Below the pieces are notes generated by a model. The model was not told the origin of the DNA. It saw only the letters and a list, made by a program, of their open reading frames with translations, and did no database searches. The translations under genes were made by a program, and so were the position numbers. Positions 11,001-64,000 of a stretch of DNA of 64,000 nt are shown piece after piece. Source of the stretch: Chondrosia reniformis (Eukaryota > Porifera > Demospongiae > Chondrillida > Chondrillidae); NCBI GenBank assembly GCA_947172415.1, contig OX359191.1, forward strand, positions 7,983,130 through 8,047,129. Reading direction: 5' to 3'. The number at the start of each line of letters is the position of its first letter. Position 1 is the first letter of the stretch.

Positions 11001-14000
11001 GTTGCCAGATGGCTTGGAGCAGGTTTGTAAGGAGGTACAGCTCCAGTACTTCCCCAAACAGGGCTATCAGAAGACCACACAAGTTAAAATTCCCTGGTTG
11101 ATTGATACAATTGAGTTTCAGAAACAGTTGTCTGACCCAGTGGAGAAAAAGGAAGAAATGTATACTTTATCTTTATCTAAAGCTCTGCAGCTTTTATTAA
11201 CTTATCTAGTCTAAGTTCCAGGAAAAATGGTGTTTAGGTAGTTAATGAGGTTAGAGTATAATCAAAGCCATGTTGCCTAGCAACACATAGTTTGAAGTAC
11301 TGCTGCCTTGGAATAAATGTTTTACTATTGTTTTTATACATACTAAAGTTTAAACTAGAGATGGGAGGAGTTATTTAGCAACACAAATTTAGTTTTTTAA
11401 AATATCCTAAAATATCCTACATCAACCTAATGACAATCTACTGGTCCAGCGAAAAAGTCTAAAGTACATCCCACTCAATCAATGACATCATACCTCTCAC
11501 TGACCTAGATATATAAGTATTTACATTATAATGTTATGATGAATTTGTAGTTAAGGAAGAATGTATTACATATTACATAACTCCTTACAATATCTAATTT
11601 TCATATCTATGAATATCATTAGCTATGAAGTCAGTCATCAGAATAGCCCCTGTATACAAACATTCTACAAGTTTGGAAAAAATTGCATTTTTTAACTGTA
11701 GAATGTTCCATGCTTTACCTTAAAGGTACTAGACTATAGTAAGAGTACAGACATGCACTCTGAAATCATCTGATTGATCTATCTGTGCATCCTTTTTGGT
11801 TCGATACAATTTCACCCCCTGTACCTCAGGGTGGGGATGGTACGACTTCACCCCCTGTACCTCAGGGTGGGGATGGCACAACTTCACCCCTGTACCTCAG
11901 GGTGGGGCACGACTTCACCCCCTGTACCTCAGGGTGGGGATGGCACGACTTCACCCCCTGTACCTCAGGGTGGGGATGGCACGACTTCACCCCCTGTACC
12001 TCAGGGTGGGGATGGCACGACTTCACCCCCTGTACCTCAGGGTGGGGATGGCACGACTTCACCCCCTGTACCTCAGGGTGGGGATGGCACGACTTCACCT
12101 CCTGTACCTCAGGGTGGGGATGGCACGACTTCACCCCCTGTACCTCAGGGTGGGGATGGCACGACTTCACCCCCTGTACCTCAGGGTGGGGATGGCACGA
12201 CTTCACCCCCTGTACCTCAGGGTGGGGATGGCACGACTTCACCCCCTGTACTATACGTTTGTACAATGAGTTAATATTTAAGGATTAACCAACCTTCTTA
12301 ATTCGGCTGCCATTTTTTCCAATTAAGAACTTGTGATACTCTGCTTTGCACTTAATCTCTTCACTGTAGTTGTCAAGATGAATCTCCTTGGCCATTTCAA
12401 GCAAGCATTCCTTGGCCTTCTCCACGTCCTCCTTGGGTCCCTGTATCTTCACCTCGTTGCTCTGAGCTGCACTCTGAGGGAAAGAGATCCTTACGCCGTA
12501 CTCATCCATGATGGAACGGACAAGCCGGCCCTTGGGACCTATGATGGCATTGTGATGCTTCTGTGGTATAGAGATGGTTGCCTCGGTTACGGCAGCCTAA
12601 AGGAATAGATACACAATGAAAATGAGAAGGATAATCTAATAACTTTAAGTGAATACTAATTAAGTTTTTAACCAATCTATTAAAAACAGACACATATAGA
12701 CATTCTCGGTATATGGTTTTGACTTCGTAAAAGGTTAGGTGCACCCAGCTTCCTGCTAATTGTATACATTACCATACATGGGAGGTATGGGAGGGCACTC
12801 ACCAACTGCCTTTCCATGGCAAGAATCTTCTCTCTGGCCCTCTCCACGTTCTCCCTTCGACCAGTAATGACTATGTACTCGCTGTCGCTCTTCTCTGTTG
12901 GGAGATCAATCTTTGTGTTTGTATCCTGGCGAATCTGAAGGACACAATATACATATAAGAGTTTTCATCTATTGCAACACCAAATAACTGTGAAAATATT
13001 TGTTTGATGGAACTATGGATAGAATTGCCTAACAAAAGTGTGACTGTAATGCATACGTATGACGATTATGCGGTACTGTAGGGTTCAGGCAATTTGAAAA
13101 TGTATTTCTTATCTTATGGACAACCCATAACAAACAACAGGTTGGAATTTGGCAGCATCTATAGGTTGGGGATAATTGACTGACAGGGTCATCCCTATCA
13201 AGTGGACCATTAGATCATTGTTCAAACTATTGACCCAATTGGAGAATGTAATTAATTTCTGAAGGAATTAAATTCAATATCAATTACATAGTTGATTAAA
13301 CAGATAGTTATCAAGTTATGAATTCTGACCTATTCTATTACAATACACTTCACAAAATAGTAATATTGTATTTCCTTAATTTCCAGTCCAACTTGTATAC
13401 ACAACAGAGGTGCAGGAGGTGCAGGATGTAAAGAGATGGTTTTATGAAAACAAGTTTACTTAACTGGCTAGTAATACTTGACCAAAGTATGATTGACTGT
13501 GAAGGTTGCTAGGGAAACACAGTCTTAGACACTGTTCCTAAGCAACCTCAAAACATACGTACTGTTTCCAAAAATAGATTTGCAGACCATACCTAATAAG
13601 GTCTACAAACATTGCATACTCAGAAATAACTATGCATAAGAAAGTTGAGGCAACTGTCAAAGTGGAAGTGTCAAAAAACCAAATTATTGCCTGAGATCAA
13701 TGAGCACATATTCACAGAAATACAAGCAACGCCCACGGGCCTGTTACATACTACAATGTTCTCTGCTTATACAGCAAATCAGTTACAACACTCAAAGCCC
13801 ACACAATTGTTTAGAAATATGGCTTTGCATGTAGCTTTGGTTAAACCAAACATACCCTAGGTAAATCACCTGACCACATAAAGGGGATAGCAAAGCCATA
13901 AACACAATATCAGGGCCTTGAGGAACACTGGGTGATTTACCAAACAGAGTTGGTACTGAATGGAATGGCCAAAAGGGAAGCGCTTAGTATGACAAGAATT

Positions 14001-20000: not shown

Positions 20001-23000
20001 TAGTATCCATCTGCAAATCAGAACGGAACAACAAAGAAGAAAAAAGAAAAAAAGAATAGCATATGGACATAAAGCAATCAGTAGGTCCTACTTAATTCAA
20101 ATATACGTATGTATATACTTACATAAAGCATTAAAGACAAAGGCGATGGATGTTTAAATTTTTTGAACAAAAAACAAAAAATGACATATTTTAAGAATGT
20201 GTAGAATACTAATGGAATTCAGGGACAGAACAAGAGGTTTTTATACTATAAATTTACTGAGGCACTTACCCCTGCATCCTATTATCACCTATTAAAGACA
20301 TACATACATACATACATACACCATTAAATTTTATTGCAATAATTTTTGTGCACACAAAAGTAGTGACTACGTACATCTAATTATCAGTGTAACGTACAAG
20401 ATCACTAGTGAAGCTTTCTAGCTTCTCCCTGGCAACTTTAACCTCGGCCTGCGGTCCCTCCAGAATGATAACATCCTGATCGTGGCTAAACTCGAGGTGC
20501 ACCTTGGGGAGGTCTGTGATGATGCTTTTGATGTTTGATCCATCTCTGCCAATGACAAAACGGTGCAACCAGTGTGGGCATTTAATTTCCTCGCATACAA
20601 TACTGTTAGCCTGAAGGGCAGATGAGGTAAGATAGAAACATTCAGTACCATTTATCATTGGTTTCTAAATTATAACTTTACCTAATGTACGTAGCAGTAT
20701 ATGGTAGAACATACAATATTGAAGAAATTGGCTAGAAGTGAGAAGGAATCATTTTGGAGTATGCTTCATACCTTACCTTTTCATACACTTTTGATAGTGC
20801 AGTCCCAAGCTTCTCCTGAGGTCCCCGAAGGGTGACAGTACAAGAATCACTGTCAGAAGGAGGAAGCTCCACAGACACGCCAGTCTCCTCGAGGATCTCC
20901 TGGAGACTGTGTCCCTTCGGACCAACAACATACTTGTGCTGCGATTTTTTCACTTCCACAGACACAGTTCCACAGGCTCTCTTCTACATGAACATGTCGG
21001 GATAGAATGTACAAACGTAAGAATGGACTCAGTGTGTAAAGTACGCAAAACCACATTGCATGCGTGTTGTTCTTTGTCACAGTAAAATCATTTCAAACAA
21101 TCGTATGTAATTTTTGGTAAGAAAAGTTGATGGTCTATTTGGAGCTATTAAAGATTGCAATATGATGTCACTAGCAGAAATTACAGGAAAAGACTAAAAT
21201 GGCTGATAAATATCTTTGATATGGTAAAATATACATACCTAAGTACGTATGTATATATGCATGGTTGTGGTACACTACATATTTCCAAATGATTACGTAC
21301 ATCTTAAATGATTGATTAATTTTCACTTCAACTTATGTACATTATCTAATATCCATGATATAAACCTTTTCAGTTGGGTACATTATAGGAACCATTTTTT
21401 GTCGGCCACTTTTAGCAGCTCAAATTTTCAATTTTCTTTAAATTTTCTGTAATATCTACTACTCACACAAGTATTGTATTGTATAGGTGTTGCGCAATCA
21501 ACTCCCTTTGTTTCATCATTTCACATGCTGCATTGTCAATTGTCAACCAATTACACTAGAATAACTATTACATTGCATTGATCTGTTGTACCAGCCAACA
21601 TGTCTGGACAAATTGGATTAACTAATGAGATTGATACATACCTACAACATGGAGGGGTCACCGAGTTTAATTCCCAGCAATTTCATGTTTTTAGGGGTTG
21701 CCCCTATGTATATTGTTTTCAATTCCCAAATGCCTATGTACACATAAGTTAACTAAGCTTTTCTATCCTTTTGTATAAGGATATTCAAGGGTCCAAAATT
21801 GTTAAGATCATAACTATGTACGTACGTACTGTAGTTCAGGAAATTTACGTGTTCAGAAATTTTCGTGTTAAAATATTTTCGTGGTCTGGGGGCTACCACG
21901 AAATATATTACCACGACAACTTATACACCTTACGTAATTACATTGAGAAAATGGAGGATTACAAAAGGGATCTCTATGTTCGCAGCTTTCACGTGTATCG
22001 CGACATATGGGAGGCGGCTGTTGGGGAGGTGCTTGACTGTGAAAGAGAACCAGGAAACGCTGTGTTGTGTTGTGTTTACATATACGTAGATTGTACAACG
22101 TGTTATTATTCCTTGTTAAAAATATTTCGTGTGACAAATTTTCGTGGTTTGAGCCAACCACTAAAATATTTTAACAACGAAAATTTCCCGAATTATGGTA
22201 TGAGCCTTACAAAGCTGCCAACTACGTACATAATTTGAGTGTCACAAGTTTTTTAACTCGAATAACGTACTTGTTCCCTCTAATATAGTACACATATGCA
22301 ACTATTAAACAGTTGTGGTCTGATTATCAAGCCAATTATTAAACAGTTGTGGTCTGATTATCAAGTCAATTATTCATGAGGTACTAACCAGTTCTTCATA
22401 CTGCTTCTTGATGGTCTTGGCAACTTCTGCCACTCCGTCCTTCTCCCCCGAGATGGTAATGTCATCCTTCTTCACAGACGGAGGGGGCATATTGATTCGT
22501 GTTCCAGTTTGATCAGCAAGAGACTTGACTCGGGAGCCGTTTGGGCCATTGATAAAGGGATGATACACCTTCTCCACCGTGATAACTTCAAAAGCAAGCT
22601 TGGCCTTAAAAGATACAATCATAAATACATATGTACATACATTAAATTAAACAGAACTTTTAGTGCATTTAGAATTATTTCACAACCAAATACTGCCAGC
22701 AATTTATATGGCAAATCTAAGCATGTACCGCTTCACTCATATGAAATATTTACATAAACTTATGCTAAGCAGAGCCTATATGATAAACCTGAATAGATAT
22801 GTTCTCTTTAGATAATATCTCAAGGGAGTGGAATAATACAATATAGATGATAAGAGAAGGTTCATGGGAAGTGGAGGGGAAAGTGTTTCATGATGTTAAG
22901 AGGGTAACCATATACGTACATCTCATATACCTACGTACATACCTACGTACATATGTACGTCGTTCAATACATTTATTTGCTTATTAAAAAGTGCCAATAA

Positions 23001-26000
23001 GACTTTCTCCAAGAGAAAGTAGTAAAATAATCTCAAGGGTCCCGGTACACACATTTGTTGAGACACACAGCACTGGAGGAGACTTACCTGTTCTTCGGAG
23101 ATAGTGAGGATCTCATGCCGAGCCCTGTCGATACCCTCCTTTGTTCCGGATATCTTGATGGTGTCGGACGGGTCCTCACTCTTTGGCACTGTGATTTTGG
23201 TGGCTGTCATGTTCTCAATCCCTTTCAACTTGTTTCCACTCTTTCCCAAAACAAATTTATGGTGACCCTTTGGCACTTGGATATCAATGAAAGCCTGAGG
23301 GGGGAGGGGAGGGGAGGGGTTTGAACCATCAGACACACAAAAAAGAGAAAAAAGAAAAAATATTGTAACTACGTACGTATATCATTTAGAAATTTCTGAA
23401 TCTATTAAAGACCTCTGGTTGAAGCGTATTTATAAGTGGTGGACACATTAGCTAAAAACTACTACAGTACATAAACATGGACAAAAGATGGAGTGAAAGA
23501 CTATAAAGCCATGATATTTTACCCAGACAAGAAAGAACATACGTAAGATAATCATCTTCCTCCATTGGATACACAATAAATTAAAAATCAATCATCTCAA
23601 GATATAAATGTCCGAAAGGAAACTAAATTTAACTAAGTCTTTACATATGAAGAAGAAAGAGTAATCGAGTGGACTACATCGTGCATGCTCCTCCTTCCTC
23701 CTACAGAGAGCACATCACATTATTAAAGGTATAAACTCAGTTGAATTGGTAGGACAGAAGGATGCCTTTCAATTGAATTAGAGCTTATTGAATTTCCTCT
23801 CTCCCTCTCATGGGTAAATGAACATAAACAAAGAGCGTATTGAGCCCAATCATACCTATAACGTATAACTTCAAATCAAATCTAGATCTTCACATTATAC
23901 AAGTTACACCATAGAAGTCAACTAGGAACTTCCCATTGAATAATGGTAGTATGTTCACAGGAAATCTTTCAGTACAAGACTGAGTAATGAGTAAGAATGC
24001 AAGATTGAATGGGTAATTGTACACCAGTGCTGTCTATACGAGTAACGAGTTATCCTACAGTGGTCGAAATAACGTCCGGTCATCAGTCAATTTCCGAACG
24101 TTTTTTAAACGTTAATACTGAGGCTATAGGATTCCTATAGTCTCAGTATTAACAATTAGAACAGTCATTGAAGCTATCTACCATATCCTATTACATAACA
24201 GGTTGGAAATTGACTATAGTGTTAAGAATAGTAGACCACGCCATAGCTTTGCCACGCCCACCCTGAGGTGTATTCAAGGTATGTACGTAGCTAACAGTGA
24301 ATCGTTTTCCATGAACTTAAGTACGTACATTGAAGTAGTATGTATAATTTCAAGTGAGTGTTTAGAAACAACATAACAGTTGTGGTTGGCCTATCAGTGT
24401 GATTATTCATATACACAGTATAAGACAAAGGACATGTACCTGAGTCTGAAGCTGGTTCAAGATGAGTTTCCTAGCCTGGAGGACAGCTTCGGGTCGCCCG
24501 GTTACCATGATTGACAGACTCATATCCTTAGCCTGGCAGACCTCAATGTTACAGCCAGTCTTCTGCATAACCTCCTTCACAATCTGGGTCTGCCGGGTCT
24601 CCCCACCAAAAGGCTTGTTCAGCTCCTTGAACCTCCTCTCCTCCAAGGGCACATGGAAAACCTAAAGTTGGTAAGAGGAATACAGAGATAGAAATACGTA
24701 TGTATGCCGGAATTTGACAAAAATTACAATCCCAGAAATTAATTCAACATTTTACTAGCTAGAAAACATTAGCATGAAACTACTTCATGTTACGTATGTC
24801 ATGCAGCGGTAAATAAATCTTTTCTTTTGAAAATATATTCAACCTTTCAAAGGTATTTAAACAAAAATACAAAACAGCAGTGAAGTGATAAACCTCACCA
24901 ACTCATTAGAATGTAGCCTTTTAGGAACATTTGAAGTTAGGTGCACTAACAAAAGAGGTTAACATACTTGCAAGCACTACCAAAACGCTACACTATGACC
25001 TACAAATATATATCATTGTTCCACAAGCAATAATTATAATATCTAATTGAAATGGCACACTTCATCAACCAAAACAGTTGTTACAGCACATTACATATAG
25101 ATGAGTTCATAATTAGCTTTCCTCCTTGTCTCAAGTACTCATATTAATAAGACCATCTGTAGGTATATCAAATTTGAATAGCATACGTAGTTGGGGAAAC
25201 CATCAAAAGAAGACATTTTAGGATGCCCTAACTGAAATGGATGCCCTAACTGAAATGGATGCCCTACCTGTAATGGATGCCCTAACTGAAATGGATGCCC
25301 CCTGAAATGGATGCCCTAACTGAAATGGATGCCCTACCTGAAATGGATGCCCTAACTGAAATGGATGCCCTAACTGAAATGGATGCCCTAACTGAAATGG
25401 ATGCCCTACCTGAAATGGATGCCCCCTGAAATGGATGCCCCACCTGAAATGGATGCCCTAACTGAAATGGATGCCCTAACTGAAATGGATGCCCTACCTG
25501 TAATGGATGCCCTAACTGAAATGGATGCCCTACCTGTAATGGATGCCTCCTGAAATGGATGCCCTACCTGAAATGGATGCCCTACCTGAAATGGATGCCT
25601 TACCTGAAATGGATGCCCTACCTGAAATGGATGCCCTACCTGAAATGGATGCCCTACCTGAATGTGATGACAAAACACTCATCTAACACTACCTATATAC
25701 ATATATGTAAATAGCTTCCAATAATGACCTGAGGTGATAATTGGTTCATTAGGAAGTTGACTTAATATAGTTATGAAGTAAAGAAGGAAGAAAATGAAAA
25801 TATGAGAGGGCTTCTATCTACACTTTACTAAAGCAATCAATTTATAAGCTCAAAGGTTGAGCAATTGAACAATATACATTTGTGGTTACTATCCAAATGT
25901 TGATGTTAGCTATTCTTTACTTGTGGTGAAATGGCAATCTTTGATCTAATACAAACTACACTAGGAGGCAGCCATTCATGTAGAGTGTGGGCTATATCGC

Positions 26001-27085: not shown

Positions 27086-30000
27086 ATGGAGTCTGCGATG
27101 ATGAATGCAACCGAGAGTCCTTTAATGCCTGACTACGGCAAGGGAATCACATTATTCGTATTCTGGATAGTCTCCCTTTTAGGAAACACGACGACCGTTA
27201 TCTTTCTGTTGAAGTTTAAGAAGTCAAGAATACCAGACACCCTGGTGATTGCATTAGCATGTACTGACTTGGTAGCTTCCATTATACCGGTCCCGATGGC
27301 TATGTATTATTACTTTAGCGGTTATCAACTAAGCAAAGGTACACCGGAGTGTAATTTCTTTGGTACAATAGCGCAGTGGACTCGATATACAGCCGCTATT
27401 CTGGTGACCTTGATATCTATCGACCGTTATATGTCAGTTGTGCATCCTGTAGTGTATAGCATCAAAGCGCGAATTTGGCATGCTGTTTTGGCTATTGCAA
27501 TTGTGCTGGTAATCGCGACCACTTTGGCCATTGTCCCCTGGTTGTCCCCTAGCACGCCCATCGTACCTTCCGACCAGTACTGCCTCTTTTCTTTCGTAAC
27601 TCCCTACGCTATGGTGATCGTCGCCTATGGAGCTATACAGTTTGTGATAGTGATGTTTTGTTTTGCAGTCGCGACAGTTGCTCTTTGTCGGGTTTACGCT
27701 AGAAGAAGGAAGATGAAGCGTCAAGGGGAAAGAAACTGGAATTCTGCGCGTCGTTCGAATCAAGGACCTCTTTTTATCAAACCAGGGCTATCGGCGAAAT
27801 TGGATACCTTTAAGAAGGCTGCTCCAGTTGTAAGCGAAACACTAAAGCTAAGCATAGAAGCTCAGTTTGCTCGGATGCTTCTGGCAATTACACTGCTGTT
27901 CTATGCAAGCTGGCTACCCATAGTGGTAAGAATGATAATGAATAGGCTACTAGCAAAAAGTCATATCACTAAAACCAATACGTGGAATTGGTTCTATAGT
28001 GTTCTATTCTGTTTCTAGGTTCTCATAATATATGCTTATGCAATTGGAGATGAGGATGGAGGAACATTCAAGGAGATTCTCTTTTGGTGTATTCGATTTA
28101 CAGTCATAAGCACTGCTGTAAACCCCATTCTCTACGGACTCCTTTGTCGACAGTACAGACAACTCTATATCTATTTGTTGAGGAGGATTTTCAGCTATTG
28201 CTGCAGCTGTATTCACAAGCCATATTACAGTCCCTTTCGTAAGAGCCATACACTCATAATAATATTGTACACAATATGAATAGATGCATCTAGCATTGTC
28301 TTTAGCTTTAAATACATGCATAACTCAAGCTGAAGTCCATTTCTAAGCAGATATTTAAAGATACTGTTTCTTATATAGAATACAGAGATCATCCACCACA
28401 ACATATTGAAGCTAAAATGCAGAGAGCTAAGGAGAGTAGAAAGCCAATGGAGAAAATTAAATTTCATGGAAGCTATCGTAGTTTGCAATCCTTGCAAAGT
28501 CAAACTTCTAGTCAAAATAGTCATCCGATAACTCGTGCCACTACTAATACAAATGTTTCTTTGCATGGTCTTTTTGGCATTGAGGAAGAACTTTCATCGT
28601 TTGACACTTCTATATTTTACCAAAATGATGGTAACATTAAATCAGAAGACCTCTTTCGATCCGAATATCTTCAAAACAGGAATTTTGGCAAGAAGATTGT
28701 CTCCTTGGAACAGTTTTCTGGGGATGGCATTGATGATGAAATTGCAGACTTTATTTCACCAACAGAAGTGCTAATTCATGACAATAAAGCAGTGACTAGG
28801 TATGTTCCATATATTTGTTAAATGCATATAGATTATGGATTCCATGCTAAAGTTAGGAAGAATAGTATATATATGACATGCACTGTTTACATTACTTTTT
28901 ATATATACTTCTAAAAGTTTAAGACACTCATTGAAGAAAAGTAAAACTATATCATTTAGAGCACAGTGAGCTTATAGGTGGAACTGGAGTTGGTTTACAG
29001 AAACCAGAACCACTCAAAAGGAGAAGCAATCATAGACAGCTGTTTGTCCTTAGCATAGATTTATAGGATTAGCAGTGCACCTTAAAATCCCCTGATAAAA
29101 TTCCATATCTGTTTCTATATGCATATGTACCTTCACTGTTTATGTATGTAAGTATATAATATGTGACACATCAGCAGAAATATTGCATGCATTGTGCTTA
29201 TAATATTCATTGCTATTTTTTTCAGGTTTAATCCTCTTCATGGTTTGGAGGAAGATCAACTCTTGCCAAATGAATATTTTGAGCAAGGACAATATGGCCA
29301 GACCATTGCAAATCCAGCCTTTCAAAAGAAGCCAAGGTTCAATTCATCCAGCTCATCCAAGCAAGGTAGAGAGCTTGAAGGTGACAGATACCATATGAAT
29401 ATAAATGCCTCAGATTCTGACAGTGACTTTGACATTGCTCAATTGCCTTTAAAACAAAAGATTTTGCAATTTGAAGGAAGGGCCTGTAAAGACCAACTTG
29501 GGCATTTCAGTGATGAATCAGATGCTATAACCAGTGAAAAGTCAAGTCAAACATCTAAAAATGAGGAGGATTTTGAAACAAGTCCTATCTCCCTCACAAA
29601 AGTAGCCGGAGACAGGCTATTTAATGCTGAAGAAAAGTCTGAACTTAGTCAGATCACTTTACAGGAGTCAGAGGACGAGCAGACGGATGCTGAACCTAGT
29701 CAGGTCACTTTACAGGAGTCAGAGGACGAGCAGACGGATGCTGAACCTAGTCAGGTCACTTTACAGGAATCAGAGGACGAGCAGACGGATGCTGAACCTA
29801 GTCAGGTCACTTTACAGGAGTCAGAGGGCGAGCAGACGGATGCTGAACCTAGTCAGGTCACTTTACAGGAATCAGAGGACGAGCAGACGGAAGCTGAACC
29901 TAGTCAGGTCACTTTACAGGAGTCAGAGGACGAGCAGACGGATGCTGAACCTAGTCAGGTCACTTTACAGGAGTCAGAGGACGAGCAGACGGAAGCTGAA

Positions 30001-30696
30001 CCTAGTCAGGTCACTTTACAGGAGTCAGAGGACGAGCAGACGGATGCTGAACCTAGTCAGGTCACTTTACAGGAGTCAGAGGATGAGCAGACGGAAGCTG
30101 AACCTAGTCAGGTCACTTTACAGGAGTCAGAGGGCGAGCAGACGGATGCTGAACCTAGTCAGGTCACTTTACAGGAGTCAGAGGACGAGCAGACGGAAGG
30201 CCAAGTAGAAGAAGATATAAGGAGTAGTCTAGAGTCTAGCCAGAGTACATTAAATCACTCTACTAAGGCAAAAGATGAAGGGGAATCAAGTGTTGAATAT
30301 TCTGCCATTGATATAGATGAGGTTTCCATCAATGAACCACATTCTACACCCTCAATATCTTATTCTACAGAAGAAGATTCAGAAGTTGAGGTGGTGACTA
30401 AAGGTTCAAAACAAAGAGAGGTAGCAGAGATGCATCCACAGCTGAGAGTAGATAGTGATTTAATTGTTGTCAACAATGACAGGGATCACAGATTTGCAGC
30501 AACTGATTCAGTTAATATTAGACAAGACACACTTCAGCAAACATGGCAACATGCTGCTTCTAAGAAAAAGAATATTCTGGAAGACACAACACTTATTCAT
30601 CAGTTTAGTGAACTAGAAAAGCTTTTACAAGAAGCAACATCAGACTTACCAAACTTTGATTCTTACAGTGAAACCACCCTTACTTCTTATATTTAG
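27086..30696 (+). CDS. class A (rhodopsin-like) GPCR with long acidic-repeat C-terminal tail
   Basis: Exons 27086-27925, 28019-28238, 28379-28799 and 29226-30696 join in frame (phases 0, 1, 2; introns GT-AG) to give 983 aa. Class A hallmarks: Asn-Ala-Thr glycosylation site at the N-terminus, GN in TM1 (33-34), LACTD in TM2 (D61), Cys89 and Cys166 for the TM3-ECL2 disulfide, DRY at 113-115, a SWLP form of the CWxP motif at 274-277, and NPILY (NPxxY) at 315-319. A CCSC cluster near 341-344 could be palmitoylated. The cytoplasmic tail is about 660 residues, low-complexity and acidic, with eleven 17-aa repeats from residue 633. It ends in TSYI, which fits a class I PDZ ligand. Ligand and subfamily were not recognised. 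The chance that exons 3-4 belong to another gene is low because the split codons close exactly. Confidence 0.85.
29641..30199 (+). repeat. 51-bp coding tandem repeat, 11 units
   Basis: Each unit encodes EPSQVTLQESEDEQTDA with D/E, D/G and first-unit variants (ELSQIT). Codons are almost identical between units, so expansion or homogenisation is recent. The SEDE and SEGE motifs fit the casein kinase 2 consensus (S-x-x-acidic). The repeat is in the predicted cytoplasmic tail of the GPCR. A second frame also stays open across it (RSLYRSQRTSRR), but that is a shadow. Confidence 0.95.
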
Positions 30697-34633: not shown

Positions 34634-37600
34634 TTATTCAGAAGGAGAATGTCTACAGATCCTCTTCCAAGTATTCACAATGACAGACTTGATTCTCTGG
34701 AAATCCCTTTTAGACAGAGGAAAAATCAAATTCACTATGGTGACCAATCCAAGACAGCTTGTGGCAATTAAGCGAAATGAAATGGCTGTGGTATAATCAT
34801 AGTCACTGTTGAACTGACATTCTGGATTATATCCACTAAATTGACAAATTGAATACTCAACTGTACTCCTGACGTCATTTGCATAATGAGCCATGCTATG
34901 AGAGAACACAGCAAGAAATAGCACTCCAAGAAACACTGCAGCGGAGCAGAGCACCACAAATTTAAATTGAGCGGCAGTGATAGAATCTGTCTTTTTCTGA
35001 TCACTCTTGAAATGATGGCTGCTCTGGGTCATAGATTTTTCTGAGTATATCTGTATTGAATAATTATGATTTGAAAAATTTCATAAAGTCGTTTTTACAT
35101 ATAATTATTTAAACTTAGTTTGTATACATGCATTTGTATAATTCTGCCAATAATTGGTCAGGTACATTTCTGTATATAATTGGTCAGGTACATTTCTGCA
35201 TATAATTGGTCAGGTACATTTCTGCATATAATTGGTCAGGTGCATGCATACCTTATGCAACTGCTGTACTAGAAAAACCATCATTATGCAACCAATGAGT
35301 AGAAGTACAATAGTTGGAAGAATAAAGCTGTAAAAGACTGCATCTAGACTTTTAGCAAGGCAAAAGAGAGCTGGAAAGGTTGCCACGGTATAAGGACTGA
35401 CGATGGCAACCACTACTGGTCCAATTGCTCCAATCAAAACCACTATAGGTACAGTTATGACGTGGATCATACAGGTATTCTTGACAAGCCATCTCTTTCC
35501 AAAAAATGGAAACTTTAAAATCACAAGAATGTATGCAAAGTGAACTATCATAAAGCCAAAGATAACTGGTTGAAAGTGTATTATAAAACCTGGATTAGTA
35601 GGTAAGAATTAGTTAAAATTACTAAATGATTGACCTGTTCATTATAAGCGGCTTACCTGAAAATATACAAAGAGTTGTGGATGGACTCGTAAGAGTTCTA
35701 ATTACATCAGGATGACTACAAAGCAACTGTGGTCCACCAATTGCTATTATCAAGAAAGTGATCCCTAAAGAGACATTAGATAAGCAATTTAATAGTTACT
35801 GCAGGTATATACATAGCATATTACATAGTGCAAACATATTAGTGAGCATATATATATATACGCACATGTACGTACATGAATAAAATACTATATATATATA
35901 AAAATACATGCCACCTACCAGCTGCCATTTCAATTATATTTTCATAAACCACGAGGACAGTTGGGAATATAAACCTATAACAAGTTATTTATAATATATA
36001 TCACATGCAGTATCATATGCAGTGCACGTATATACGTACTTACATTTCCTTCCTTCTAATAAGAGAGAGTACAAGAAATAGAGTGCCAGCAATCAGAATT
36101 ACTGCAGAACCTGTACCAATGATAACTCGAAAGCCTATATATCCATGATCTGGATAGATAGCCTCTGTACAGCTTGGAATGCAGATTGAGGGGCAGACGT
36201 TAAGGAACTGAGGATGACAAGTGACTGTTGTGTTAAAGCTGTTAGTCCTGCTGCCATTGGTACCATTACACTCTGGTACATATTTGGTGTACTCAGGGCG
36301 TGCTAAGCTTACAAAACTAAACTCAGTACTACAGTTGTCTCTAAGAGATTCACATTGCTGCTGGCTTATTCTTGTTAGCTGTCCATCTTCATTGCAGTGT
36401 GGGAAGAGATACCTGCAATATGCCTCTAACGGAAGCTCACCCTCAACAAGACATTTTTGTGAAACACTTTGTAGTATTAGTGGGTTGTTTTGAATATACA
36501 TAATAAGTCCATCTATATCCTTAGGACTAATGTTGTTTATTATAGCAACAGATTTTGAACCATTTCTGTGTATACCAGGGAGTGTTGGTAAATATGGATA
36601 GCATGCACTCTGTGGAGGTAGTGTGATACAGCTGTTAGAAGTGGACTCCATTTCCTAAGGGGAAATAGCATTATAATATACATATATTAGCTACATTAAG
36701 TTTGTATAATGTACATTAAATTTTAGTGCTGTAACTCTTACAAATGGATAGGTATGCAGCTGATACCTATCATTTACAGACATCCATTTAATTATATCTA
36801 AAGAGTTTTGCAAATTTTGATGTTTACTTATATTTGCCCTAGGTCTAACTCTCATGATCACCATAAATTTAGTTTGTATACCAAAATGTTATGTACATTA
36901 TAGTGCTGCAATTTTGTCAAATGGAGATATATATATATATATATGAAACTTGCAATTGGTGTCAGCATTCGCAGACATCCATAAAACATATCCAAAGAGG
37001 TTTACAAATTTGATGTGACTCCTGTTTAATTGCCTAGGTTTACATATAGCTTTAATTTCCAAAACTATATATTGTTAAAGCAGATGCATGCATCATGAAA
37101 ATGATGAGGAAATTACAAAAGAAGTACTAGTCAAATCAAAGTTGTTTGACATGTGGTGATGCATACAAATTAAATTGAGGTATTATAATTATTATTTGAT
37201 GGTGTTAATGAAGGACTTCATGCTCCAAGTGGTGCTTGCCCAAGCTCATATACTGTGTCTCTAAAGGACATGCATGATTAAATGTCTCATATTTCCTTCT
37301 TACAATTGTTCTGTGCTGTTTGTTTTGTATCAGTACCTTCAGACACGGTACACGTTTCATGAGATATGTTATGTGTATATATATTCTTTGAAGAGTATGA
37401 CAACAATATATATGCATATATGTATGTATATATATATATACACGTTCCTTCTCAACTCATATATAACCTATATAGACCTCTATATATAAAGATTTCTTTT
37501 TATTAGCTATTTTACTTTCCTCATCATTTTGCCAATGAATACATCCATGCAAGTTGAACATATACACCCAGACCTAAAGAAGCTATTTATACCGAACTAT

Positions 37601-38504: not shown

Positions 38505-41500
38505 TTATTCAGAAGGAGAATGTCTACAGATCCTCTTCCAAGTATTCACAATGACAGACTTGATTCTCTGGAAATCCCTTTTAGACAGAGGAAAAATCAA
38601 ATTCACTATGGTGACCAATCCAAGACAGCTTGTGGCAATTATGCGAAAGATACCACTTGTGGTAAAATCATAGGTGGGTTTGAACTGGCAATCTGGATTA
38701 TATCCTCTAAGTTGACAAGCTGAATAATCGACTATACTCTTGAAATCATTCTCTCTTTGAGCCGCTCCAAAAGAGAACACAGCCAGAGTTAATACACCAA
38801 AAAATATTGCAAGTGAAGACAGCAAAACAAATTTAAGTTCAGCAGTAGTTGTAATTTCTGTCTGTTTTTGATCACACTTTAATTGATGTCCTGTTCTAAT
38901 AATTTTTTCCGAATAGATCTGTATATATATTCACAGTATGACGTATATAAATGCACTGTAAACAACATTTAAAATTCACTTCAAAATCAAACATTTAGAC
39001 CCGTGGGTCTTCATCAGTGACATGATGAGAAACTGGAAGGAACATTGAATGATGAGTAGGCATAATAGACTGGTGGTGTCATAGGTGATGTCATAGAATG
39101 ATGTAAGAATAATAATAAGCTTAAATTATGTATGTACATATATAAATTGCATGTATAAACATAATCTATATATGTAAATGCATGCACATCTACATGCATA
39201 TACCTTATGCAACTGCTGTAGTAGAAAAACCATCATTATGCAACCGATGAGTAGTAGCACAGTACTTGGAAGAATGAGACAGTAAAATGTTGCATCCAAA
39301 CTTGCAGCAAAGCAAGAGACAGCTGGGAACGCACTCACTGTATAAGGACTGACGATGGCAACCACTACTGGTCCAATTGCTCCAGTCAAAACCACTATAG
39401 GTACAGTTATGGCATGGATCAAACGGGTATTCTTGGCAAGCCATCTCTTTCCAAAAAATGGAAACTTTAGAATCACAAGAATGTATGTAAAATGAATTAT
39501 CCAGAATCCAAATATCACTATTGGTTCAAAGTGTAAAAGGAAACCTAAATATAGAAGTATATAGGTAGGTAAGGATACTATATGAGAGTGATTGAGTGAT
39601 TATAAGAAACCTCACCAGAAAAGGTACAAAGAGATGTTTGAGACCTGGTAAGGCTTCTAAGTGCATCAGGATGACTGCAAAACAACTGAGGTCCACCAAT
39701 TGATGATATCAAGAAAGTGATTCCTAAAAATAATTACTGAAAAGCTAGTGACAATATATATGTACAGACAGTGTTTTCATTAATTATTTTATAGGTAGCC
39801 AGCTATAGGGTATTGATATGTATAATATAATGTATATGTATGCACCTACCAGTCACCATTTCAATTATATTTTCATAAACCACAAGTACAGTTGGGAATT
39901 TAAACCTAACAAGTTAAACAAATGCATATAAACATTTATATAGGGATGCATAGTGCATACATATGTATAAACAAATATAATTTGTGATAAGGATTATTTG
40001 TTGCCTTGATAACAATGCTGATGAAGACTTCAAGCCAAAACGGTTCAATTTCTGTTAAATTAAATACTTGTGTCAGCAATGCTCAACTATATGTCAACAT
40101 AGAGCATTTTACATAAAAACGTCACAGTGTATAGGTACTTACATTTCCTTCCTTCTAATAAGAGAGAGTACAAGAAATAGAGTGCCACCAATCAGAGTTA
40201 CTACAGAAACTACACCAATAATAATTCGATGAGCTATGTGAATTTGAGGAAGACCAAAAACACTTCCTGTACAGCTTGGAATGCAGATTGAGGGGCAGAC
40301 ATTGAGGAACTGAGGATGACAAATGACTGTTGTGTTAAAGCTGTTAGTCCTGCTGCCATTGGTACCACTACACTCTGGTACATATTTGGTGTACTCAGGG
40401 CGTGCTAAGCTTACAAGATCGAACTCAGTGTTACAGTTTTCTTTAAGAGATTCACATTGCTGCTGGCTTATTCTTGTTAGCTGTCCATCTTCATTGCAGA
40501 GTGGGAAGAGATACCTGCAATATGCCTCTAACGGAAGCTCACCCTCAACAAGACATTTTTGTGAAACACTTTGTAGTATTAGTGGGTTGTTTTGAATATA
40601 CATAATAAGTCCATCTATATCCTTAGGACTAATGTTGTTTATTATAGCAACAGATTTTGAACCATTTCTGTGTATACCAGGGAGTGTTGGTAAATATGGA
40701 TGGCATGCACTCTGTGGAGGTAGTGTGATACAGCTGTTAGAAGTGGACTCCATTTCCTAAGGGGAAATAGCATACACATATTGAAAGAAGATATAGCTGA
40801 CAAGTATTCAAAAGTTGAAGATGGAATGGCAACATCAGTCACCTATTTCAATTATTAGTGCATGAGTTAGGTTTTGAAAGTGATTCAGAAGTAATATAAG
40901 GTTCAAAACTCCAGAAGTTCATTAGTATTGCACGCACACACACGCACACGCACACACATAGAGAGAGACACATTGTTAAGTTTTATTTAGTTTGGAAAAT
41001 ATAGCAAAGCTCTAGATCTGTTAAAGTATACATACTTCAGTATTTGTGTAAAAGGAGGCTGTATATATATACTTTATATATACTGTTGTTCAAATTGACA
41101 AATGCAGCGATATATATAGTATTTATGATAATTGAAGCACATAGTCCAAGTTCTATATACATGTATCTAAACATACATAATATCAAACCCTGTAGCTAGC
41201 TGTTAAGATTTTCCTGGGTAAATTAGGCACAAGGCTAAGAATAGTATTAAAGGAATAGTAAATAAATAAAGTAAACCATGCACAACACAGCATATAGGCT
41301 TATATATATACAGTGCAAGTTACAAATATATATATATATATATGACCGAGCTTTGGATGAATTAAGAAAGTTACATTAATTCCCAAATTTATAATAATGT
41401 TCTATATAAGAGAGTATAGGAAAATTCACTTTCAATATTAAATCATCATGTACATTTGACATCATGTAATAGATTTATATATAGTTGAGCACCTTCAACA

Positions 41501-48197: not shown

Positions 48198-51100
48198 TTA
48201 TTCAGAAGGAGAAGGTCTACAGATCCTCTTCCAAGTATTCACAATGACAGACTTGATTCTTTGGAAATCCCTTTTAGACAGAGGAAAAATCAAATTCACT
48301 ATGGTGACCAATCCAAGACAGCTTGTGGCAATTATGCGAAAGATACCACTTGTGGTAAAATCATAGGTGGGTTTGAACTGGCAATCTGGATTATATCCTC
48401 TAAGTTGACAAGCTGAATAATCGACTATACTCTTGAAATCATTCTCTCTATGAGCCACTCCAAAAGAGAACACAGCCAGAGGTAATACACCAAAAAAGAT
48501 TGCAAGTGAAGACAGCAAAACAAATTTAAGTTCAGCAGTAGTTGTAATTTCTGTCTGTTTTTGATCACACTTTAATTGATGTCCTGTTCTAATAATTTTT
48601 TCCGAATAGATCTGTATATATATATTCAATTTTATTATGTAATATATTATGTACAGTATGAAGTATATGAATGCCTATATATATAAATTCATTGCTACGT
48701 TTATACTGGGTTACGAATTCTTACTGAGCTTATACGTAGCACTGTAAACAACATTGAAAATTCACTTCAAAATTAAGCATTTAGACCCGTGGGTCTTCAT
48801 CAGTGACATGATGAGAAACTGGAAGAAACATTGAATGATGAGTAGGCATAATAGACTGGTGATGTCATAGAATGATGTAAGAATAATCGTAAAGGAGCTT
48901 AAATTATGTATGTACATATATAAATTGCATGTATAAACATAATCTATATATGTAAATGCATGCACATCTACATGCATATACCTTATGCAACTGCTGTAGT
49001 AGAAAAACCATCATTATGCAACCGATGAGTAGTAGCACAGTACTTGGAAGAATGAGACAGTAAAATGTTGCATCCAAACTTGCAGCAAAGCAATAGAGAG
49101 CTGGGAACGTACTCACTGTATAAGGACTGACGATGGCAACCACTACTGGTCCAATTGCTCCAGTCAAAACCACTATAGGTACAGTTATGGCATGGATCAA
49201 ACGGGTAATCTTGGCAAGCCATCTCTTTCCAAAAAATGGAAACTTTAGAATCACAAGAATGTATGTAAAATGAATTATCCAGAATCCAAATATCACTATT
49301 GGTTCAAAGTGTAAAAGGAAACCTAAATATAGAAGTATATAGGTAGGTAAGGATACTATATGAGAGTGATTGAGTGATTATAAGAAACCTCACCAGAAAA
49401 GGTACAAAGAGATGTTTGAGACCTGGTAAGGCTTCTAAGTGCATCAGGATGACTGCAAAACAACTGAGGTCCACCAATTGATGATATCAAGAAAGTGATT
49501 CCTAAAAATAATTACTGAAAAGCTAGTGACAATATATATGTACAGACAGTGTTTTCATTAATTATTTTATAGGTAGCCAGCTATAGGGTATTGATATGTA
49601 TAATATAATGTATGTGTATGCACCTACCAGTCACCATTTCAATTATATTTTCATAAACCACAATTACAGTTGGGAATTTAAACCTATAACAAGTTAAACA
49701 AATGCATATAAACATTTATATAGGGATGCATAGTGCATACATATGTATAAACAAATATAATTAGTGATAAGGATTATTTGTTGCCTTGATAACAATGCTG
49801 ACAAGCCAAAACGGTTCAATTTCTTTTAAATTAAATACTTGTGTCAGCAATGCTCAACTATATGTCAACATAGAGCATTTTACATAAAAACGTCACAGTG
49901 TATAGGTACTTACATTTCCTTCCTTCTAATAAGAGAGAGTACAAGAAATAGAGTGCCACCAATCAGAGTTACTACAGAAACTACACCAATAATAATTCGA
50001 TGAGCTATGTGAATTTGAGGAAGACCAAAAACACTTCCTGTACAGCTTGGAATGCAGATTGAGGGGCAGACATTGAGGAACTGAGGATGACAAGTGACTG
50101 TTGTGTTAAAGCTGTTAGTCCTGCTGCCATTGGTACCATTACACTCTGGTACATATTTGGTGTACTCAGGGAGTGCTAAGCTTACAAGATCGAACTCAGT
50201 GGCACAGTTGTCTCTAAGAGATTCACATTGCTGCTGGCTTATTCTTGTTAGCTGTCCATCTTCATTGCAGAGTGGGAAGAGATACCTGCAATATGCCTCT
50301 AACGGAAGCTCACCCTCAACAAGACATTTTTGTGAAACACTTTGTAATATTAGTGGGTTGTTTTGAATATACATAATAAGTCCATCTATATCCTTAGGAC
50401 TAATGTTGTTTATTATAGCAACTGATTTTGAACCATTTCTGTGTATACCAGGGAGTGTTGGTAAATATGGATAGCATGCACTCTGTGGAGGTAGTGTGAT
50501 ACAGCTGTTAGAAGTGGACTCCATTTCCTAAGGGGAAATAGCATACACATATTGAAAGAAGATATAGCTGACAAGTATACAACAGTTGGAGATTTAAATG
50601 CCAATATCAGTCGCCTATTTCAATTATAATGCTGCTAAATGCATGAGTTAGGATTTGAAAGTGATTCAGAAGTAATATAAGGTTCGAAACTCCAGAAGTT
50701 CATTAGTATTGCACGCACACACATGCACACGCACACACACACACAGAGAGAGAGAGAGAGACATTGTAAAGTTTGGAAAATATAGCAAAGCTCTAGCTAT
50801 TGATCTGTGAAAGTATACATACATCAGTATTTGTGTAAAAAGAGGCTGAATATATATATATATATATACTTTATACTGTTTAAATTGACAAATGTAGTGA
50901 TATACTGTATATAGTATTATGATGATTGAAGCACATATACGTACATATATATCAAACCCTATAGCTAGCTGTTAAGATTTTCCTGGGTAAATTAGGTAAA
51001 CATGCACAAGGCTAAGAATAGTATTAAAGGAAAAGTAAATAAATAAAGTAAACCATGCACAACACAGCATATAGGCTTATATATATACGTATGACTGAGC

Positions 51101-52989: not shown

Positions 52990-55585
52990 CTAATTACAAG
53001 AATAACTTGAGCTGGTAGAAGAAAAACTCTTTAATTTCTTCCACGTACGTACAATTGTAGACTTAGCCTTTTTAAAATCTCCCGGAGACAGAGGGAAAAT
53101 GAGGTTCACCAAGCTAACCAATCCAAGACTTGTCCTACTCAAGACACTGAAAATGGTATATACAGTTCTGTTGTAAGGGGTTACGTATTGACATCTGGGA
53201 TCATGTCCACTAAACTGACATTTGGCATAAGCAATCAGGCTCTCATATTCAGCTCCTGCAATGGCCACACGAAAAGAAAACATAGCTAGGACCAGTACAC
53301 CAAAGAAGACTGCCACGGCTGAGAGTAATATAAACTTGATTTCAGGAGTACTGAGAGGACTTTCTGTTTGCTGGCCTGGACGTCTTTTGAGACGTCTACT
53401 ATTTCTCAAAACTTTGGCATTATAAGCCTACATTGAACATAAGCATAGTTAACATTAACCTTACAATACTGTGAATGACCAGTTGAATTTGTGAATACAT
53501 AATACAGTAACTGTAAAATTTTAATGTACCTTATGCAACTGCTGCACTAGAAATACCATCATTATACAACCGATGAGGAGTAGCACAGTAGTTGGAAGAA
53601 TGAGACTGTAAAAGACTGCATCTAAATTCCCAGGTAGGCAGTAATTTGGTGGAAAATTGGCCACAGTATAAGGACTGACAGCTAGAACTACTACTGGTCC
53701 AACTGCACCAATCAAAATCACTATTGGTACAGTTATGGCATGGAGAAAGCAAGCTCTCTGCTTCAACCTTTTCCTTCCAAAAAAGGGAAATTTTAGGATA
53801 ATAAGGATGTATGAGAAATGTACAATCCAAAATCCAAGCACAGCAATTGGTCCAAAATGTAAAATAAATCCTATGAGACAGAGCCAACAGTGAATCAATT
53901 ATCAAATATGAAGGTATAAGTTCAAAAATATATAGACTCACCAGAAAGAGAGCAGGAAGGAGTTGGAGGACTTGTAAGTGTTCTTAATGCATCAGGATGA
54001 CTACAAAAAAGGTTTGGGCCTCCAATAGTTGATACTAGGAAAATCAACCCTGCATGTGATAAACAAAGCACTTTTACATAGCATAAACAAAATGAGCAAA
54101 TATGGCAGCAAAACGAGCCTGGCATTAAAAGAAAATATATAAATGCATAAACATACCAATCAACATTTCAATAAAGTTTTCATAAACCACTAGGACAGTT
54201 GGGAATGTAAATCTATTGAAAATAAAATAATTACTATAAACTTGGCAATGAATATGTAATGCACAAACAACATAATAAAAACATAATGATCCATTATGTT
54301 ACCTCCAGTTTGTCAGGTAGCCAATTAACTATGTATGAATTCTAACTCAAAGGTGTGAACATTTGTGTATATTATGTACATAGTATAGCTATATTCATAA
54401 TCCCATTGGAAGATATGCTCATATGAAAGTCTGTTGCAGATTAAGGCTGTGACATAAGAAAAATAGAGCAGTCAACCATACATAAATATACAACTTTTTC
54501 CTTGAAACGAGAGCACTATGCTAAAATGTATATATATGTATATGTGACACTGTCTGGGCTGTAGTGTATAATATATATACTCTCACATTTCCTTCCTTCT
54601 AATAAGAGCAAGAATAAGAAACAGAGTACCGCCAATCAGAGTTAATATAGGCACTAAGTATGTCAAAGCAAGGTTAGCTTCCAATAGCTCAGGCTGAATA
54701 AACACAGCCTCTGTACAGCTGGGCACACAGAAGATTGAGGGGCAGACGTTGACGAACTGAGGATGACAAGTGACTGTTGTGTTAAAGCTGTTAGTCCTGC
54801 TGCCATTGGTACCACTACACTCTGGTACATATTTGGTGTACTCAGGGCGTACTAAGCTTACAAGATTAAACTCAGTACTACAGTTGTCTCTAAGAGATTC
54901 ACATTGCTGCTGGCTTATTCTTGTTAGCTGTCCATCTTCATTGCAGAGTGGGAAAAGATACCTGCAATATGCCTCTAACGGAAGCTCACCCTCAACAAGA
55001 CATTTTTGTGAAACACTTTGTTGGATTAGTGGGTTGTTTTGAATTTGCATAATAAGTTCATCTATTTTGACAAGTTTTTCTAATTCAGTATGTACAATTA
55101 TAGCTGAGGCGTTTCCAATTGCCGAGACATGTGTATAGCATTTACTTTCTATGGGCAAGGCATGGCAGCTCTTGGATCCCTAGAGGAAGAAGAAAGAAAG
55201 GTATCACAAAAGTAAGTAGAGATAGTCGAATCAATTTGCCAACAAATGAACAATACGAATCCTTACTGCATGTTACAGTAAAAGGATTTCGCATTGCATG
55301 GCAACAACTGAATTTAGCTTTCAATTCAGAAGGTTATGTAGGTCGATGATCCGGAGAAGCTAGCAATACACTTACTAGCAAATGATCTACTGAGTCTTTT
55401 GCACAAATGTCGATACCGTCAGCCAATTCGTGGAGAATATCAAAGTTTTCAGGACTGCGATAGACATAGAATATGGTAACAGGAATACTGAAGAACGCTA
55501 CCAGAAAGAACGAAATAGCGATAGCAAGCACTTGGCTTTTGTATCGACATATGCTTTTTCTCCTCTTAGGTGTACCCTCCTCCAT
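52990..55585 (-). CDS. Frizzled-like 7TM receptor E (divergent member)
   Basis: Exons 55585-55376, 55179-54587, 54212-54157, 54049-53942, 53870-53530 and 53427-52990 give 581 aa with the same phases as A, B and D. An ATG at 55594 (MAKM) could add three residues; 55585 was chosen because exon 1 is then the same length as in the paralogues. The N-terminus of exon 2 (SKSCHALPIESKC), TM1, exon 5 (SPYTVANFPPNYC) and exon 6 are clearly diverged from A/B/D. The core of the cysteine-rich domain (LPLEAYCRYLFPLC and onward) is almost the same, even at silent sites. The C-tail (TWKKLKSFSSTSSSYSCN) is Ser-rich and lacks KTxxxW. Introns 2-5 are compact. The exon 6 and exon 2 fragments of pseudogene C derive from an E-like gene. 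Confidence 0.75.
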
Positions 55586-60559: not shown

Positions 60560-61560
60560 CAGTTAATGTATGGGGAGAGATATGGCAAATATGAATATAA
60601 ATCAAAATTTCCAAAACTCGATCATGCTTATAGAGCTGTGAATGCTGACACCAAGTAACAGCTTCATATCTTTCCATTTGATAGAGTTACAGAAGTAAAT
60701 GTACAAAAACTCCTAGTATATATAAAAACTAAATGTATGGTGAGAAATATGAGTATAAATTAAAATTTCCAAACTCTTTGAGTATACTTCAGGGATGTCT
60801 GTGAATGCTGACATCATGTCACAGCTTCATATTTTTCCAATTGACAAAGTTACAGCACTAAATGTACATTAGATTCTATTATACAAATTTAATGTATGGT
60901 GAGAGTTACGTAGGGCAAATATAAGTGAACATCAAAATTTGCAAAACTCTTTGGATATGTTTTATGGATGTCTGTGAATGCTGACACCAAGTTTCAGCTT
61001 CACACCTTTCCAATTGACAGAGTTGGGGCACTAAATGTACATTAGACTCTGGTATACAAATTTAATGTATGGTGAGAGATAGGGCAAATTTTAAGTTTCA
61101 TCAAAATTTCAAAAACCCATTGTCCATATTCTATAGATGTTTGTGAATGCTGATACAAAGATTAAGCTTCATATCTCTCCATTTGATAGAGTGACAGCCC
61201 TCAATGTACATTAAATTCTGGTATACAAAGTTAATGTATGGTGAGAGATAGGGCAAATTTTATATAAGTTTCATCAAAACTTCAAAAACCCATTGGACAT
61301 GTTCTATAGACGTCTGTGAATGCTGATACAAAGATTAAGCTTCATATCTCTCCATTTGATAGAGTGACAGCCCTCAATGTACATTAAATTCTGGTATACA
61401 AAGTTAATGTATGGTGAGAGATAGGGCAAATTTTAAGTTTCATCAAAATTTCAAAAACCCATTGTCCATATTCTATAGATGTCTGTGAATGCTGACACAA
61501 AGATTTAGCCTCATATCTCGCCATTTGATAGAGTTACAGAACTACAGTTAATGTACTGTT
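60560..61560 (+). repeat. satellite-like array, block 1 (about 6 diverged units of about 170 bp)
   Basis: Recurring blocks are TATGGTGAGAGATAGGGCAAA, CATCAAAATTT, TCTGTGAATGCTGA(C/T)A, AGCTTCATATCT(T/C)TCC and GTACATTA(A/G)ATTCTGGTATACAAA. Units here are more diverged from one another than in block 2. Confidence 0.85.
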
Positions 61561-62254: not shown

Positions 62255-64000
62255 CTTTTTTGAAATTTTACAAAACTAGCAGGATATACTGTATAGCTAT
62301 ATGTGCATACAGCCAAGAGGTTTCAGCTTCATATCTTTCCAATTGACAGAGTTACGGCACTAAATGTACATTAGATTCTTGTATACAAATTTAAAGTATG
62401 GTGAGATAGGGCAAATATGAGTGAACATCAAAATTTGTAAAACTCTTTGGATATGCTTTATGTATGTCTGTGAATGCTAACACCAAGTTTCAGCTTCACA
62501 TCTTTCCAATTGACAGAGTTACAGCACTAAATGTACATTAGATTCTTGTATACAAATTTAATGTATGGTGCGAGATAGGGCAAATATGAGTGAACATCAA
62601 AATTTGTAAAACTCTTTGGATATGCTTTATGTATGTCTGTGAATGCTAACACCAAGTTTCAGCTTCACATCTTTCTAATTGACAGAGTTACAGCACTAAA
62701 TGTACATTAGATTCTGCTATACAAATTTAATGTACGTATGGTGAGAGATAGGGCAAATATGAGTGAACCTCAAAATTTGTAAAACTCTTGGGATATGCTT
62801 TATGGATGTCTGTGAATGCTGACAGCAAGTTTCAGCTTCACATCTTTCCAATTGACAGAGTTACAGCACTAAATGTACATTAGATTCTTGTATACAAATT
62901 TAATGTACATATGGTGAGAGATAGGGCAAATATGAGTGAACATCAAAATTTGTAAAACTCTTTGGATATGCTTTATGTATGTCTGTGAATGCTAACACCA
63001 AGTTTCAGCTTCACATCTTTCTAATTGACAGAGTTACAGCACTAAATGTACATTAGATTCTGCTATACAAATTTAATGTACGTATGGTGAGAGATAGGGC
63101 AAATATGAGTGAACCTCAAAATTTGTAAAACTCTTGGGATATGCTTTATGGATGTCTGTGAATGCTGACAGCAAGTTTCAGCTTCACATCTTTCCAATTG
63201 ACAGAGTTACAGCACTAAATGTACATTAGATTTTTGTATACAAATTTAATGTATGTTGAGAGATAGGGCAAATATGAGTGAACATCAAAATTTGTAAAAC
63301 TCTTTGGATATGCTTTATGTATGTCTGTGAATGCTAACACCAAGTTTCAGCTTCACATCTTTCCAATTGACAGAGTTACAGCACTAAATGTACAATAGAT
63401 TCTTGCATACAAATTTAATGTACGTATGGTGAGAGATAGGGCAAATATGAGTGAACATCAAAATTTGTAAAACTCTTGGGATATGCTTTATGTATGTCTG
63501 TGAATGCTAACACCAAGTTTCAGCTTCACATCTTTCCAATTGACAGAGTTACAGCACTAAATGTACATTAGATTCTTGTATACAAATTTAATGTATGGTG
63601 CGAGATAGGGCAAATATGAGTGAACATCAAAATTTGTAAAACTCTTTGGATATGTTTTATGGATGTCTGTGAATGCTGACAGCAAGTTTCAGCTTCACAT
63701 CTTTCCAATTGACAGAGTTACAGCACTAAATGTACAATAGATTCTTGCATACAAATTTAATGTATGGTGAGAGATAGGGCAAATATGAGTGAACATCAAA
63801 ATTTGTAAAACTCTTTGGATATGCTTTATGTATGTCTGTGAATGCTAACACCAAGTTTCAGCTTCACATCTTTCTAATTGACAGAGTTACAGCACTAAAT
63901 GTACATTAGATTCTGCTATACAAATTTAATGTACGTATGGTGAGAGATAGGGCAAATATGAGTGAACATCAAAATTTGTAAAACTCTTTGGATATGCTTT
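62255..64000 (+). repeat. satellite-like array, block 2 (about 10 units of about 172 bp, continues past the window)
   Basis: Units recur every 169-176 bp, with GAGATAGGGCAAATATGAGT, GAACATCAAAATTTGTAAAA, CTCTTTGGATATGCTTTATG, GTCTGTGAATGCT, CAGCTTCACATCTTTC and TTGACAGAGTTACAGCAC. Alternating sub-variants (CTAACACC/CTGACAGC, ATGTATGG/ACGTATGG) suggest a higher-order repeat of two or more units. No ORF. Confidence 0.92.

Follow-up and report, generated by a model that had tools for sequence, protein, structure and literature searches.

Does a sponge receptor of the rhodopsin family carry on its own transcript a very long, acidic and repeat-bearing cytoplasmic tail, and, if so, what might such a tail do? 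The question was raised by a locus of Chondrosia reniformis, an animal without neurons. The locus lies in a window of 64,000 nucleotides (C3:7983130-8047129), by which we mean the whole stretch of DNA that was analysed. The answer was sought in the gene model, in the repeat array, in a nearby paralogue and in the other receptors and arrestins of the genome.

Receptor core and gene model

A first-pass annotation had joined a canonical class A seven-transmembrane (7TM) core, through split codons, to two large tail exons. This joining was upheld. The four receptor exons (table 1) were joined in frame to a product of 983 residues without any internal stop, and the splice sites were canonical, with the donors GTG/GTAAGA, TTC/GTAAGA and TAG/GTATGT and acceptors ending in ctgtttctag, tcttatatag and tttttttcag. 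Residues 34-319 matched the Pfam family 7tm_1 (E 2.3e-29; 103.1 bits, cut-off 30.5). The core also matched Srx, more weakly but above that family's own cut-off (25.7 against 23.8 bits), and a match to cytochrome b561 fell below the curated cut-off. The transmembrane labels and motif names were assigned by eye. In this way, DRY at TM3, WLP in TM6, NPILY in TM7, the cysteines of TM3 and ECL2, and a NAT glycosylation-type site in exon 1 were recognised; TM5 had no internal proline, and the middle of TM4 had no clear tryptophan. The class A core agrees with the Pfam score and with DRY, WLP and NPILY, and, judged from its sequence, this demosponge receptor belongs to the rhodopsin family (class A) of GPCRs. 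Among the best 60 of 452 matched PDB sequences, GPR50 was the best match to the core (E 4.4e-14), and somatostatin, neuromedin and other receptors scored just behind it. Because these follow so closely, no orthology is claimed. In a survey of sponge receptors, sponge-specific rhodopsin groups are reported and the rhodopsin-family receptors of Amphimedon reportedly have no eumetazoan orthologues (PMC4302439); the words 'tail' and 'PDZ' do not occur in its main text.

Table 1. Features of the receptor gene, numbered from the first letter of the window
Feature	Position	Strand	Basis
Exon 1: N-terminus to TM6, class A 7TM receptor	27086..27925	+	Joined product, Pfam 7tm_1
Exon 2: end of TM6, TM7 with NPILY, helix-8-like stretch, to PYYSPF	28019..28238	+	
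Read-through end of unspliced exon 2: RKSHTLIIILYTI, then stop	28239..28279	+	Open reading frame 28019..28279
Exon 3: proximal part of the tail, with its earliest in-frame Met at 28417	28379..28799	+	Codon score
Exon 4: remaining tail including the repeat array, up to the stop	29226..30696	+	Codon score
Repeat array: eleven 51-bp units, each encoding a EPSQVTLQESEDEQTDA-type repeat	29641..30201	+	
TSYI codons, class I PDZ-type C-terminus	30682..30693	+	
AATAAA, earliest 3' of the receptor stop codon	31114..31119	+	

Several other features were noted in the window. Four tandem copies of an apparently Frizzled-like receptor gene lie on the minus strand (34634-36654, 38505-40756, 48198-50527 and 52990-55179); of their four first exons three were tested, and each gave a weak, sub-cut-off match to the Pfam Fz domain (E 0.0006 to 0.0024), whereas two 7TM-like exons from the first of these copies had no Pfam match. 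The two tested exons of a KH-domain gene (22374-24661, minus strand) matched KH_1 and Vigilin KH. Tandem repeats occur at 11811-12251 (36 bp x 12.4, open in three plus frames and one minus frame, apparently a non-coding minisatellite), at 25221-25662 (18 bp x 24.9, with a higher-order period of 124 bp), and at 60561-61544 and 62320-64000, where a 173-bp satellite has a dimer period of 342 bp and its latter block reaches the end of the window.

The acidic array and its possible role

C-terminal to the NPxxY motif (NPILY) the receptor has 664 residues, 132 of which are Ser or Thr. The array in this tail consists of eleven units of 51 bp, or 17 residues each (187 in total), and the first unit reads ELSQITLQESEDEQTDA. 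Tandem Repeats Finder (TRF) counted 11.0 copies at 96%, and the mean pairwise identity of the units was 0.959 (range 0.90-1.0, 55 pairs). The array contains 22 Ser, 22 Thr and 64 acidic residues but no Lys, Arg or His, giving a net charge of -64. The earlier description of eleven near-identical acidic repeats of 17 residues therefore held in count, identity and charge, but EPSQV was lacking from the first unit and present only in the other 10. The CK2-type sites that it had listed were confirmed as well: the pattern [ST]xx[DE] was found 32 times in the array, three times in the standard unit, and 47 times in the whole tail.

The units vary at 8 of 51 positions; the variation is nonsynonymous at five of these (codons 2, 5, 12, 16 and 17) and silent at the other three. 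Units 2, 6 and 8 are identical, and so are units 4 and 10. Codon 16 alternates perfectly between Asp and Glu from unit 5 to unit 11, which suggests that the array was duplicated in two-unit (102-bp) blocks. The proposal of a recent expansion is borne out as recent expansion or homogenisation. We read the array as an in-frame 51-bp minisatellite in the last exon that recently grew to eleven units.

No other known domain was found in the tail by Pfam or by a PDB search with exon 4 (best E 0.98). The TRAF2-type pattern [PSAT]x[QE]E occurred 12 times against a shuffle mean of 6.3, and 11 of the 12 were one per unit. Three other identities were rejected. A neuropeptide precursor was ruled out by the absence of dibasic sites, as K, R and H are lacking; the SUMO-interaction pattern did not fit the units, its 3 hits all lying outside the array (shuffle mean 2.95); and two sub-cut-off Pfam hits of the array's +1 frame (25.6 bits against 33.1 and 19.8 against 27) were taken as repeat artefacts.

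The C-terminus TSYI has the class I PDZ-ligand form [S/T]-x-hydrophobic, as had been stated. A PDZ-type end also arose in 19 of 300 shuffled tails, so that of the receptor could be due to chance. Arrestin-type phosphocode hits were not in excess in the tail (22 against a shuffle mean of 21.97), and YxxPhi motifs were near the shuffle level (5 against 3.45). Acidic di-leucine motifs numbered 3 against a mean of 1.26, a count reached by 38 of 300 shuffles. The case for phospho-regulation would thus be carried by the charge of the tail and its CK2-type sites.

We consider it about an even bet that this is a class A receptor to which a disordered, multiply phosphorylated, acidic regulatory tail was added, favouring arrestin-mediated shut-off and placement through PDZ and sorting signals. 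Kinases (CK2-type and perhaps GRKs) would add to the bulk negative charge of the tail, this charge would favour arrestin binding and the shut-off or internalisation of the receptor, and the sorting motifs and the PDZ-type end may help to place it. The tail may thereby act as a scaffold or in desensitisation. Rival readings of the tail are not all mutually exclusive. The one that survives best, possible although clearly less probable, accepts the joins and regards the array as a coding minisatellite that is neutral, or nearly so; the tail would then be a disordered tether, and its number of repeats would be irrelevant to receptor function. The array may be neutral because such arrays are common in the sequence examined: in 134,037 bases, a non-random sample, 10 distinct arrays with a length of 150 bp or more (period at least 10) were counted, this one among them. 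Moreover, with five of the eight varying positions nonsynonymous, there is no clear purifying selection between units, and no homologue of the tail was found elsewhere in the genome. On the other hand, the length of the unit is divisible by three, none of the 11 units contains a stop, the composition is strongly acidic and hydrophilic, and the translation of the other arrays is putative.

Origin and structure of the tail

The open frame of the array is by itself no proof of coding, because another minisatellite (27 bp x 10), which lies 3' of a 7TM-like exon in L028 and is presumably intronic, is open in 4 of 6 frames. It is the unique open sequence flanking the array on either side that serves as evidence of coding. 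In all four tail segments scored (exon 3, the array itself, and the parts of exon 4 on either side of it) the best codon score among six frames was that of the called frame; the score was trained on other open frames of the same genome, 12,600 nt in total and assumed to be coding, and penalised frames with stops, which the non-called tail frames contain. Of 2,825 stretches of 140 codons sampled at random from the rest of the window, 12 (0.42%) had no stop. These 12, among which there may be real exons, scored about as high as the tail. Thus, the openness and the codon score of the tail suggest coding without proving it.

The tail exons are likely to belong to the receptor's own transcript. We consider it improbable that exons 3 and 4 form a separate downstream gene starting from the Met at 28417, with the receptor stopping at 28279 or nearby as its paralogue does. 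That in-frame Met is present, the tail of the paralogue is short, and the read-through of exon 2 yields a plausible short C-terminus. However, exons 2 and 3 are separated by a gap of just about 140 bp, no AATAAA or ATTAAA occurs from exon 2 to the first Met of exon 3, and the good GTAAGA donor at 28239 and its acceptor keep the frame, which is preserved at both tail junctions. Unspliced exon 2 is nevertheless a possible candidate for a short-tailed form, and short and long receptor forms may possibly be produced by alternative splicing.

A paralogue (L015, C3:7922376-7926926) lies about 84 kb from the receptor on the opposite strand. It is 34% identical to the receptor over query residues 9-214 and 31% over 319 aligned positions, and both genes have an intron at the same site at the end of TM6, which in the receptor precedes exon 2. 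In contrast to the receptor, the paralogue product, joined from two exons, has only 397 residues; it ends in NPFHLT, has 37 residues after its NPxxY equivalent and carries no array. Its stop lies three codons past the point at which the receptor splices into the tail. Searching the tail against 20 kb around the paralogue (tblastn) gave chance hits only (best E 2.0). Across the genome (117,379,552 bases in 15 contigs), two tail queries, one covering exon 3 and the beginning of exon 4 and the other the last part of exon 4, recovered the receptor gene only, and repeat searches with peptide and DNA found no second copy outside it. Considering that the paralogue is short and that no copy of the tail was found elsewhere, a gain of the tail by the receptor, rather than its loss by the paralogue, is the simpler reading; this polarity is drawn from one paralogue, whose short form could also be a loss. 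As the joins read, splicing into two additional exons lengthens the C-terminus by about 630 residues. In prokaryotic contigs, a pattern search for a contaminating sponge relative matched 18 stretches, none of which was confirmed.

The preferred reading of an added regulatory tail could be carried further, to an acidic phospho-acceptor array whose copy number differs among individuals and whose minisatellite length tunes shut-off or scaffold valency; we regard this extension as doubtful.

In a charge-hydropathy analysis, all tail segments tested fell on the disordered side, and we consider a disordered, cytoplasmic tail most likely. Within the tail lies a PEST-like stretch of 194 residues free of K, R and H, with a PEST-type score of about 20 by an approximation of the published formula. 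That this stretch is a PEST-type degradation signal or a calpain site, limiting the lifetime of the receptor or freeing the distal tail, is quite unlikely, as such scoring reflects composition only and cleavage or ubiquitination is hypothetical. AlphaFold2, given exon 4 alone, drew a beta strand in 11 of 11 units, with a pLDDT of 55-74 per ten-residue block over model residues 141 to 320. A control with the array DNA in the +1 frame gave helices (mean pLDDT 46.1), so the strands are not a property of any reading of the repeat, and they speak weakly against complete disorder of the tail. For perfect repeats, however, AlphaFold2 is known to produce unrealistic beta-solenoids in which uncompensated charges are stacked, as described in PMC11795689, and the solenoid was not relied upon for that reason. 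A beta-solenoid rod with one strand QVTLQ per 17-residue coil, holding the distal sites off the membrane, is therefore a very remote reading, given also the low mean pLDDT from single-sequence input (best model 48.6; five models 35.8-48.6) and the very high acidic density.

Other receptors, arrestins and known systems

In a genome search with 7tm_1, 29 candidates were scored and 16 matched, 14 of them above the cut-off; some matches were exons of one gene, and 1 of the 14 passed only with its in-frame neighbours. Six other 7TM loci that could be read in one open frame were compared for tail length (L024, L025, L029 and L031 were left out). After the NPxxY equivalent, five of them had 385, 135, 133, 40 and 21 residues, and the sixth (L027) had about 100 as counted by eye. 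In L026, L028 and L030 the open frame seems to stop short of TM7. In L028 (601-2058), two divergent 7TM-like open frames, 601-1377 on the minus and 1360-2058 on the plus strand, overlap slightly and look like a head-to-head pair. The 385-residue tail belongs to L020 (C3:6450362-6450808 and flanks) and ends in SEV; this locus matched the FSH, TSH and LH receptors and is a glycoprotein-hormone-receptor-like 7TM locus. The receptor tail of 664 residues was the longest among the loci read, a small sample. Accordingly, the rarity attributed to so long a tail was only partly sustained: the tail is very long, but that of L020 shows that it is not unique.

An arrestin partner may be available. Of six matches in a search for beta-arrestin-like pieces, five lie in collinear order on C5 (48-73% identity; individual E values from 0.0016 to 0.07), and the sixth was one of the alpha-arrestins. 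The five make up a beta-arrestin-like gene split over small exons (L045-L049, C5:6555724-6560669, minus strand), a probable beta-arrestin gene. Pfam genome searches gave 4 Arrestin_C matches from 6 candidates and 5 Arrestin_N matches from 5; the latter were the four Arrestin_C genes, which we take as putative alpha-arrestins, and one VPS26C-like gene (labels by eye). These exon-wise searches missed the split gene on C5, and exon-wise counts, including that of class A receptors, are therefore lower bounds.

Among the papers listed in literature searches, none dealt with this receptor gene or with acidic 17-mer repeats in the tail of a receptor, which does not prove their absence in print. Among known systems, cephalopod (squid) rhodopsin is a class A receptor with tandem PPQGY-type repeats in its C-terminal tail; these are proline-rich pentapeptides on an opsin core, whereas the sponge repeats are acidic 17-mers. 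GPR179 and GPR158 also have long cytoplasmic tails, in which short motifs recur and serve as a scaffold, but they belong to class C and their motif is unrelated. The tail of melanopsin is not known to contain a tandem array. As described in PMC7112210, bulk negative charge from phosphorylation of the long melanopsin tail can drive shut-off. The mouse tail is given 38 Ser/Thr, compared with the 132 after NPxxY in the sponge receptor. For bulk charge the functional analogue is melanopsin; the evolutionary analogue is GPR50.

If the transcript is confirmed, the receptor and its short-tailed paralogue would form a natural pair for testing what a long repeat-bearing tail adds, and for asking whether repeat number tunes desensitisation. 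The closest published parallel is GPR50, the mammalian melatonin-related receptor, which is likewise of class A and likewise gained a long repeat-bearing tail. According to the description in PMC2323367, its ancestral stop codon was replaced by this tail, for which a phospho-dependent, flexible scaffold was proposed; a receptor that acquired such a tail is to that extent already in print. In that description the GPR50 repeats are degenerate heptads with a conserved basic residue, whereas the sponge units are near-identical, acidic, 17 residues long and without basic residues. Compared by description, the two tails show no apparent relation and we infer separate origins. If our reading is true, the sponge receptor would join GPR50 as another example in which a tail with repeats was acquired beyond an ancestral stop.
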